Of a stretch of 64,000 bases of DNA, positions 24,621-58,757 are shown piece by piece. This stretch comes from Oribacterium parvum ACB1 (GTDB lineage: Bacteria; Bacillota; Clostridia; Lachnospirales; Lachnospiraceae). The stretch covers positions 10,001-74,000 of the forward strand of contig NZ_KE148312.1 in NCBI RefSeq assembly GCF_000238055.2, written 5' to 3'. The position numbers and the translations under genes are program-made. The notes under the pieces are model-generated. The model did not search any database, had not been told where the DNA came from, and worked only from the letters and a program-made list of their open reading frames with translations. Position 1 is the stretch's first letter; each line of letters begins with the position of its first letter.

Positions 24621-24763
24621 TAGAGCTCCGGCTATCCTCTTTCGTAAAGGCGCTCTCGCTTGGGCTCCGACTCAGCGGTACTAAACTCGCACTTCGCGTC
24701 GCTCGTGTTCGTTAAGTGCCGGAGTCTCCGCACACTTTACTTAAGAGGATAGCCGGAGCTCTA
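24621..24763. repeat. long inverted-repeat element with conserved core, copy A
   Basis: A perfect 21-bp stem (24621-24641 with 24743-24763) and, after a 2x2 internal loop, a 6-bp stem GTAAAG/CTTTAC enclose about 85 bases. Inside are CGCTCTCGCT (24651-24660), TACTAA (24679-24684) and AAGTGCC (24714-24720). These words and their spacing recur in copy B at 31238-31435, although the outer arms are unrelated. It lies between the convergent genes ylmH and hflX. It has no T-run, so it is not a simple terminator. The remaining bases to 24848 show nothing else. Confidence 0.75.
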
Positions 24764-31237: not shown

Positions 31238-31435
31238 AAAAAATAGGCTTGAAAACAAAGCTTTTACACTGTGCAGGTCCGTTGCAGGGCACGCTCTCGC
31301 TAACCTCGCCCAGTAGGGGATACTAAGCGAAAAACAGCATTACATTTGTTTTTCGCAAGTACCCACGGGCTCAGATTACCCTGCAACGGACCTGCACAGC
31401 AAATTACTACAGCTTTGTTTTCAAGCCTATTTTTT
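31238..31435. repeat. long inverted-repeat element with conserved core, copy B
   Basis: An outer perfect 25-bp stem (31238-31262 with 31411-31435) starts with A6 and ends with T6, so it can act as a terminator in both directions. After an internal loop comes a perfect 19-bp stem (31271-31289 with 31379-31397). The core has CGCTCTCGCT (31292-31301), TACTAA (31321-31326) and AAGTACCC (31357-31364), around a hairpin GCGAAAAACA/TGTTTTTCGC. Spacings match copy A within one base. It sits between the convergent ybaK and glutaredoxin-like genes. Confidence 0.78.
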
Positions 31436-32026: not shown

Positions 32027-32874
32027 TTATGACAATTGAAACTCTTGGAGCAGAGCCTTTCTGTAGTCGGGGCTCTCGGAGGCTTTTTCAATGTCCGCAA
32101 TTCTTCCTTCTCTTACGAGTAAACCCATCAGCTTAGCCATCTTGCTTTCGCTTTCTTCCTTACCCTTTGCCATTCCCTCTTTCTCCCATTGTTTTTTTAA
32201 TCGATCGTAATATGTTGTCATGGCGTCACGCTCTCCCTTCTCTATATTTTTGTTTTCTTTTAGATCAGCGACTCTTTTGGCAAGAACCTTGGAATGCATC
32301 TTCTTCGGATCTTTGGTGTAGAAATCCTCTATCAGCTTTCCCAATTCATTCTCGCTGTCTTTACTTGTATTTAGGTAAATGATTTCCGCCTGATCCGGAA
32401 ACTTCTTGCCGGATTCCTGTATTATTCTGGAAATATGATAAATCTGTTTGTTCTCTTTTAAAACGTCCTTTGCACAGATAAATATAACATAGCTTTCGGG
32501 CAAATTTTCAAAAGTTTTCCTTTTTTTAAAATATGCATATCAATGAGTCCGGAATGATAGCGAGCACGCTTTGGACTCGCTCCATGCGAATCGTTTTGAA
32601 CCTCTATATTGTATACTGTGCCTTTTGTATCACTGCAAAGACAATCCAAAATAAGAGAGCGTCCCTGCAGATTTTTTAAATCACTTTGAATACTTTGCGT
32701 TTTAACCTTTAAGTCCGGTTTCTGTAAAATGGTTTGTAGAATAAATTCGGTACATTTCTTATCTTTTAAAACGATTCGCATGAAAATATCGTCCATAAGA
32801 ATCAGCTCGGACAAAAACTTCTGCTCCGGACTAAGATGCTCTTTGGATTTGGAAAACCCCTTAATACTAGGCAT
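32027..32874 (-). pseudogene. Rpn/PD-(D/E)XK nuclease family transposase, frameshifted
   Basis: Family of recombination-promoting nucleases (formerly PDDEXK transposases) that are often multicopy and decaying in Clostridia. The start at 32874 follows AAAGGAGG. The N-terminal half carries the nuclease core (LILDCLCSDTKGTVYNIEVQND, where D, E and Q stand at the usual places) and RARYHSGLIDMHILKK. The frame is then lost at an A7 run (32521-32527), and the second half NLPESYVIFICAKDV continues in the -1 frame to a Lys/Glu-rich tail. The codons TTA AAA AAA GGA allow -1 slippage (A AAA AAA), so a full-length product of about 282 residues is possible. Confidence 0.85.
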
Positions 32875-33158
32875 AGACTGCCTCCTTTCAGAAGAGAATG
32901 GAAATAGAATCAGATTGAAAAAATAGATTACAAAAATAAAAGCAGAGCATAGAAATAACATGAGTACAGAAATAGAATGAATATAGCAATAGATATGGTG
33001 TAAAAATAAAACGAAAAAATAGAAATAGATACAACGGAAATAAATAGAAAAAATAGAGGTAGAAAAAGACTTGATTATTCCGGCGCTTAAGAACCAAGCT
33101 TGCGTCTTTTTTCAGTATAGCAGGTGGCCGAAAAATTGCCTATACTCCATATTCGGAT
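32875..33158. other. AT-rich gap with degenerate repeats
   Basis: 284 bases without a gene. From about 32900 to 33070 it consists of loose copies of words such as AAATAGAAATAGA. The nuclease start signal lies at its left end. No promoter, RNA gene or attachment site was recognised. Confidence 0.5.
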
Positions 33159-48660: not shown

Positions 48661-48733
48661 AAAGGGGCTGTAAAAAATCAAAATGTATTGCAAAGAATCC
48701 CTATATTAATTTGATTTTTTTACAGCCTCTTTT
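48661..48733 (+). terminator. terminator after the ABC-F gene
   Basis: A long hairpin, AAAGGGGCTGTAAAAAATCAAA with TTTGATTTTTTTACAGCCTCTTTT, with a loop of about 27 bases. The rest of the 48584-48817 gap holds nothing recognised except a small CCTGAAATCATCAGG hairpin near 48784 with a following T-run, which would end the minus-strand tRNAs only if read in reverse. Confidence 0.7.
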
Positions 48734-58320: not shown

Positions 58321-58339
58321 GGAAAAACTCGTTAAACTC

Positions 58340-58448
58340 GCTCCTCTTTCATCCAGACTATACTGTTGGTGTCGGAATTGCACCGACTCAGCTGCAAACG
58401 CAGGTCGCGGACTGTACCGCCAGTGGGGAATCGCACCCCGCCCTGAAG
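58340..58448 (-). ncRNA. FMN riboswitch (RFN element)
   Basis: The minus strand reads the conserved blocks CAGGGCGGGGTGCGATTCCCC, ACTGGCGGTA, AGTCCGCGA, then GTCGGTG/CCGACACC and AGTCTGGATGAAAGAG, in the order of the RFN aptamer. With the terminator downstream it should switch off ribU when FMN is abundant. Boundaries are approximate. Confidence 0.96.
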
Positions 58449-58757
58449 AACTACAGATATAGAATACTCCTTTCTTGAAAAAATGCAAGCGGAGAAAAAT
58501 TCACTTAAAACATACAATGTGCACAAAGAATGTCTTAAGATTTATAAATAATAAACAAATAATAAAAGAGAAAGAGAAGGACAAAAATCACTATGGATAT
58601 ATAGAGAAAGCCTATATAAAAATCAGAAAGAATTATTTGTTAAACACATAAAATATTTTTAAACATAAAAAGCAAGATTTCAAGCGGGTTTTGAATGCTT
58701 TGAGATGGAATGGAATGAGCGGGAAAAAATCAAAAAATTATATAAATTTTGTATTCC

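Follow-up and report, generated by a model that had tools for sequence, protein, structure and literature searches.

A family of probable dispersed DNA hairpins with a covarying core and drifting, matched arms in Lachnospiraceae

ERIC/IRU, BOX and other MITE-like repeats are small imperfect intergenic palindromes that also occur as shortened and internally enlarged copies, and integron attC sites conserve their structure while their stem sequences vary. REPs are described as elements of 20-40 bp with a GTAG or CGTC tag (PMC3733652), and template switching has been proposed for compensatory pair changes without G-U intermediates in RNA genes (PMC8794818). A review of MITEs names neither Lachnospiraceae nor Clostridia nor Firmicutes (PMC10969869).

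Here we analysed a window of 64,000 nucleotides from Oribacterium parvum ACB1 (contig NZ_KE148312.1, positions 10,001 to 74,000), in which two hairpins share a core. We consider it probable that they belong to a Lachnospiraceae-wide set of non-coding, non-autonomous dispersed hairpins, whose arms are kept complementary mainly at the DNA level and which are mobilised in trans, and we read the family as REP/ERIC/MITE-like, though unusual in that its core is conserved and covaries whereas its arms drift freely and stay matched. Dispersed repeats of this kind are known, and this family appears unrecorded. No description of it was found in the open-access papers searched, and among the matches listed for the core 10-mer in that literature the contexts were unrelated by title. 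The first-pass annotation had recognised no known family, and Rfam agrees, giving no family at gathering score over either copy in the window. A relaxed E-value search of 13 loci gave matches below gathering score only, two of which touch an outer arm (L030 and L444), and a below-threshold Clostridiales-1 match (L047, 721-852) is located away from the element. With regard to a known origin, which that annotation had set out as one of the outcomes that would overturn its view, the Rfam side is clear, and an insertion-sequence origin was examined in part, through outer repeats and IS200 ends. We report an apparently unrecorded repeat family in more than a third of 299 sampled genomes of Lachnospiraceae, a family of major importance in the gut; a single genome may carry as many as ~200 copies.

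Two copies in the window and the extent of the family

The two elements, copies A and B, had been annotated as having unrelated outer arms that pair perfectly within each copy (21 bp in copy A), and both coordinates and pairing were confirmed (Table 1). The core follows the order P2, an unpaired CGCTCTCGCT, P3, a 2-nt bulge, P4 (CGGTACT/AGTACCG) and a variable P5. The shared spacing described earlier also holds in the sequence, with an identical CGCTCTCGCT, TACTAA after 18 or 19 nt and AAGTxCC after a further 29 or 30: TACTAA lies at 24679 in copy A, 18 nt past CGCTCTCGCT, with AAGTGCC at 24714, 29 nt past TACTAA, and copy B has CGCTCTCGCT at 31292-31301, TACTAA at 31321 (19 nt on) and AAGTACCC at 31357 (30 more). 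The inner stems likewise stand as annotated, GGTACT/AGTGCC with GACTC/GAGTC in copy A and GGG(A)TACT/AGTACCC with GCCC/GGGC in copy B. A covariance model built from 69 copies found A (73.5 bits) and B (57.4) as its sole strong matches over the window, the next scoring 12.8; the model includes this genome's copies, copy A being one of the 69 sequences and both loci coming from that genome.

Table 1. Features of the two copies and of a related unit, in window coordinates
Feature	Position	Strand	Pairing or basis
Copy A, P1 left arm	24621..24641	+	21 bp, perfect pairing with 24743-24763
Copy A, P1 right arm	24743..24763	+	pairs perfectly with 24621-24641
Copy A, conserved core P2-P3-P4-P5	24644..24743	+	covariance model, 73.5 bits, E 3.1e-15 (window)
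Copy A, conserved unpaired CGCTCTCGCT	24651..24660	+	sequence and alignment A2 columns 8-17
Copy A, P3, 2-nt AG bulge, P4 and variable hairpin P5	24669..24726	+	sequence; helices covary in relatives
Copy A, P3	GACTC 24669-24673 / GAGTC 24722-24726	+	sequence
Copy A, P4	CGGTACT 24676-24682 / AGTGCCG 24715-24721	+	sequence
Copy B, outer palindrome left arm, A-rich outside	31238..31262	+	25 bp, perfect with 31411-31435
Copy B, outer palindrome right arm, T run at end	31411..31435	+	perfect with 31238-31262
Copy B, P1/P2 left arm	31269..31289	+	21 bp, perfect with 31379-31399
Copy B, P1/P2 right arm	31379..31399	+	perfect with 31269-31289
Copy B, conserved core	31285..31386	+	covariance model, 57.4 bits, E 1.9e-11 (window)
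Probable deletion derivative, inner hairpin lost	48663..48730		outer inverted repeats AGGGGCTGTAAAAAATC, Oribacterium subtype

In the O. parvum genome the pattern CGCTCTCGCT-N14-40-TACTAA occurs 29 times and a reversed-pattern control 0 times, which, together with the sole strong model matches in the window, places the observation far beyond chance. A slightly wider pattern was present in 5 of 61 genomes searched, the source genome included, with 203 occurrences in G032 (genome names as taken: MAG SRR15730550_bin.21), 55 in G012 (Oribacterium sinus DSM 17245), 29 in the source genome, 8 in G027 and 2 in G024. With at most 150 candidates scored per genome, the covariance model found at least 41 copies in the source genome, at least 127 in O. 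sinus and at least 29 in a third Oribacterium (G007), whose copies had escaped the strict pattern. Across the 299 sampled Lachnospiraceae genomes, with scoring limited to 13 candidates in each, it matched 115 at E 1e-6 or better and found no copy in 184. The 77 model matches at E 0.001 or better, from 65 loci, make a clean family, 76 reaching at least 54.7 bits and one 31.4. These further copies in relatives, recovered by both pattern and model, substantiate the proposed family with a shared core. A phylum-wide sample yielded matches in 5 of 398 genomes, namely four Lachnospiraceae, the source genome among them, and G694, from another family.

That last genome, taken as Anaerovibrio sp. RM50 and of Selenomonadaceae type, holds at least nine copies outside the Lachnospiraceae, which suggests transfer between families. 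Among the matches listed, most named contigs come from Lachnospiraceae; the remainder include Selenomonadaceae/Veillonellaceae as well as a few chance matches. About seven pattern matches in Paenibacillus, Enterobacter, Saccharibacteria, Lentisphaerae and others look like chance because their arms are unpaired. No copy was found in IMG/VR viral contigs by one stricter pattern scan, or in phages or plasmids by one core query each. In a looser IMG/VR scan, 38 of the matches listed also carried AAGT; with arm scores of at most 30.5 they were judged chance and left out of the arm counts.

Crude ORF calling around 149 copies gave both neighbours for 119, of which 81 lie between same-direction genes, 26 between convergent and 12 between divergent ones; of the other copies, 12 overlap an ORF call that encloses them, 15 lie at a contig edge and 3 are distant from any ORF. 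The convergent setting annotated for A and B agrees with the ORF calls at these two sites and does not extend to the family (26 of 119). No likely partner gene recurs beside the elements among 900 ORFs at 144 loci, the recurring neighbours looking, by eye, like ordinary chromosomal genes. Near copy B, two adjoining frames at window 32027-32961 resemble a broken Rpn/PDDEXK_2 nuclease gene, named by eye, and an Rfam search placed an FMN riboswitch at window 58337-58454 on the minus strand.

Covariation of the core and concerted change of the arms

The element is ~150-210 bp long, of which the core alone takes ~100 nt. Most of alignment A2 columns 8-17, corresponding to CGCTCTCGCT, show at least 90% conservation over the 77 rows, and mismatches mark the base of P5, T.C in 44 and C.T in 46 of the 69 model sequences. 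The two-sided changes first noticed between A and B extend to strong covariation of the core: in 77 model matches (75 distinct rows) 88.8% of cells are paired versus 66.9% after shuffling, 21 of 24 pairs change on both sides versus 16.5, and the covariation score is 0.582 versus 0.181 for shuffled and 0.09-0.17 for slid partners, in an alignment that was fitted to the covariance model and is biased toward its structure.

The outer arms are free in sequence and matched within each copy, often with an additional outer P0. Paired arms (score at least 35) were found in 149 of 163 non-viral pattern copies, the other 14 including chance pattern matches and truncated copies; in a control that paired arms of different copies (n=201), 188 scored below 30, 11 at 30-39 and 2 at 60-69. 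Over 87 arm sets less than 60% alike, the paired fraction stays at ~0.9 to nt 25 and falls to 0.82 at nt 31 and 0.57 at nt 34. The roughly constant P1 of ~22 bp is a reading from local alignments, in which 46 of the 87 arm ends lie at nt 29-35. Isolated arm mismatches flanked by three Watson-Crick pairs comprise 38 G.T, 41 A.C and 50 others.

In the MAG G032, 47 copies, four of them from named contigs of the same MAG, show 38 distinct 11-mers between conserved anchors. Counting 46 copies (L414 was dropped for a changed anchor, and pairing at 8 of 11 positions was required), 360 of 506 arm pairs are unchanged, 132 compensated, 11 one-sided (A.C 5, G.T 3, other 3) and 3 doubles of another kind. 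Leaving out the copies from the four named contigs, the remaining 42 give 115 compensated, 6 one-sided and 7 other doubles. The first-pass annotation had described pairing that is kept while the sequence changes; in this one genome 28.9% of arm pairs changed versus 5.1% of core positions. The compensated changes comprise 78 transversions and 54 transitions and are unclustered (45 adjacent versus 47.5 expected), leaving multi-base template switching unsupported. Among 27 sequence-distinct copies of Oribacterium type 1 (20 from the source genome and 7 from O. sinus), 432 pairs include 8 compensated changes, versus 0.33 expected if independent, and 8 one-sided ones; five of the eight compensated changes share one position, so that they represent at least four events. 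A Robinsoniella-like cluster of six copies, five by name from one MAG or a near one and others from further Lachnospiraceae, shows 6 compensated and 5 one-sided changes.

Given that the arms show no G-U preference, either overall or in G032, a selected RNA stem was rejected for them and their pairing is probably kept at the DNA level, which would give rise to concerted variation without G-U intermediates. Correction of one arm by the other at the DNA level is the simplest reading, with template switching as a route already in print (PMC8794818), and selection on hairpin or cruciform DNA may be an alternative cause of the matching. A more specific proposal, which we regard as rather improbable, is that every round of copying remakes the arms from each other, perhaps through self-primed foldback synthesis with a single-stranded or RNA intermediate; each copy would then have a matched, freely drifting stem of its own, and the machinery would read the core only. 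The arms here covary at a ratio of about 12 to 1 and without G-U intermediates, a warning that a bacterial hairpin with compensatory changes is not necessarily a selected RNA. The many paired copies within single genomes also provide a natural test of stem matching, which is usually argued from RNA genes.

Dispersal and competing explanations

Fourteen of the 27 distinct type-1 copies carry identical P1 arms at different loci, which, taken with the concerted changes, indicates that the element carries its arms along and that these nevertheless drift, pair by matched pair. Nesting of copies in the tips of others occurs at six sites in 380 kb of O. sinus, each with half-copies flanking a complete copy that has their orientation; at two of these sites the inner and outer parts are similar, suggesting that composites are copied as a unit. 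In the Oribacterium subtype, units bounded by GGGGCTGTAAAA-like ends account for 31 rows (one locus listed twice), most with A runs on the left and T runs on the right, and span 196-312 bp when they hold a core. Several short outer-only units, window 48663-48730 among them, retain pieces of one arm and are probable deletion derivatives; the outer repeats of the window unit also bound full copies elsewhere in the Oribacterium genome. Copies with outer arms of the A-run, stem, T-run form may act also as two-way transcription terminators. At the O. sinus counterpart of the copy A interval there is a nested array of the other subtype, whereas the counterpart of the copy B interval contains a different gene and no inverted repeat of 12 nt.

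Other arrangements were also seen. Tandem arrays comprise three units of 187 bp in G150 (L381:1900-2450) and three units ~200 bp apart in O. sinus (L332:5428-5921), and the source genome also has half-copies of one subtype that adjoin or surround complete copies belonging to the other (L007:1500-1700 and L005:1060-1850). A separate 110-nt multi-hairpin repeat (L443:221-330) gave 21 BLAST matches in the source genome, 11 in O. sinus and 0 in 32 other genomes. It sits at one point of P3 in 12 loci read in context, forming a long version of ~310 bp, and once outside the element, beside L025; IS200 ends were rejected as its source, with 0 of 6 motifs in five IS200 loci.

The first-pass annotation had left a choice between structured RNAs and mobile DNA hairpins. 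The balance favours a dispersed DNA hairpin, on account of the copies of one subtype at different loci, the self-nesting and the deletion derivatives, as well as the lack of significant orientation bias and arm G.T mismatches that are no commoner than A.C. We infer that a putative trans-acting activity would recognise the folded core and copy the element into intergenic sites, mostly without target duplication, and that the arms would travel with the element and be kept complementary, mainly at the DNA level, through arm-by-arm correction or a need for cruciform or hairpin DNA.

Against this explanation we count that no mobilising enzyme was found among the families searched, that no insertion event has been seen between close strains, that the compensated changes are unclustered, that P3 and P4 in the core prefer G.T to A.C, and that the rough constancy of P1 length comes from local alignments. 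In many genomes, too, the copies might be ancient and vertically inherited, without being mobile. Reverse transcriptase (PF00078) was matched in 13 of 22 carrier genomes, 12 of them above the family cut-off, and Y1 transposase (PF01797) in 11, and five carriers (G100, G126, G136, G309 and G327) matched neither. Missing from 11 of the 22 carriers, and likewise failing to track presence in another 22-genome search, Y1 was rejected as a necessary partner, as was reverse transcriptase, missing from 9, where inactive relics of elements mobilised by it are possible. PDDEXK_2 (Rpn), matching 195 of the 299 Lachnospiraceae genomes, shows a mild association by hand tally (86 of 115 carriers versus 109 of 184 non-carriers, p 0.006) and was rejected as the partner given 29 carriers without a match.

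An explanation that we consider unlikely takes the copies for a structured RNA family in the service of the host, acting as 3'-end stabiliser, terminator or small RNA, whose multi-copy state is incidental. It would account for the strong core covariation, the few copies in ORF calls (12 of 149), the convergent over divergent settings (26 versus 12) and the core mismatches (G.T 65 versus A.C 16). The mismatch counts are likely shaped by clade effects, since a single helix end accounts for 12 of the 16 A.C and just four pairs account for 54 of the 65 G.T. P3 and P4 carry more G.T than A.C and favour the top strand. The G.T preference suggests that one strand, perhaps as RNA, is under selection, and an RNA role of the core is possible. 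The top strand is the more stable predicted RNA in just 17 of 88 cores, and P5 in G032 shows 3 G.T and 9 A.C over 36 distinct hairpins. Weighing against a host RNA, the 81 copies between same-direction genes show no significant orientation bias (34 with and 47 against the top strand, p 0.18), copy number runs from none found in 184 of 299 genomes to 203 in G032, copies nest in one another and the arms lack a G-U preference.

It is rather improbable that the core is a small insertion targeting the tips of existing hairpins such as terminators, with arms that belong to the target site. Such targeting would fit the nesting of copies in the tips of others and copy B, whose 21 bp arms sit inside a second perfect, terminator-like 25 bp palindrome. 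However, pre-existing hairpins as the arm source are set back by the 14 distinct Oribacterium copies that share exactly the same P1 arms across loci, and 87 unrelated arm sets have a P1 of much the same length; four orthologous element-free O. sinus intervals also lack an inverted repeat of at least 12 nt, a weak point at coding flanks of ~66-80% identity. A classical MITE, an insertion-sequence deletion derivative moved by a DDE transposase through outer inverted repeats, is very improbable despite the AGGGGCTGTAAAAAATC outer repeats of Oribacterium and those resembling AATTGCGAAAC in several other carriers, because outer repeats vary between lineages while the core is kept, target duplication is lacking in 29 of 31 rows, and 45 outer-repeat matches in the source genome include no pair spaced like an insertion sequence.

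Comparison with known systems

With REP/REPIN sequences, moved by RAYT (TnpA-REP), the family has in common high-copy chromosomal palindromes near gene ends. It differs in its tags, GACG and CTAC/GTAG each occurring at 3 of 46 P1 ends, in a length well outside 20-40 bp (~150-210 bp, the core alone ~100 nt) and in the 11 of 22 carriers in which RAYT (Y1, PF01797) was not found. The nine of 22 carriers without a PF00078 match set it apart from elements mobilised by reverse transcriptase (group II intron, retron or SINE-like). Of the MITE hallmarks, terminal inverted repeats are present in the Oribacterium subtype (31 rows), with different outer repeats in other genera; 29 of these rows lack a direct repeat of at least 3 nt as target-site duplication, and no parent insertion sequence with the same ends appears among 45 matches in the source genome. 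Some transposases make no target-site duplication.

Integron attC sites resemble the element in joining a conserved structure to variable stem sequences, whereas no attC core boxes were recognised by eye and no cassette array was noticed here. Template-switch correction resembles the arms in compensatory pair changes without G-U intermediates; it is a mutation mechanism rather than an element, and the clustering of changes that it may bring is absent here. The likeness to ERIC/IRU and BOX lies in small, imperfect intergenic palindromes with shortened and internally enlarged copies. Those repeats belong to other hosts, and by description the present family is set apart from them by a family-wide covarying core and by arms whose sequence is free although the two arms of any one copy match.
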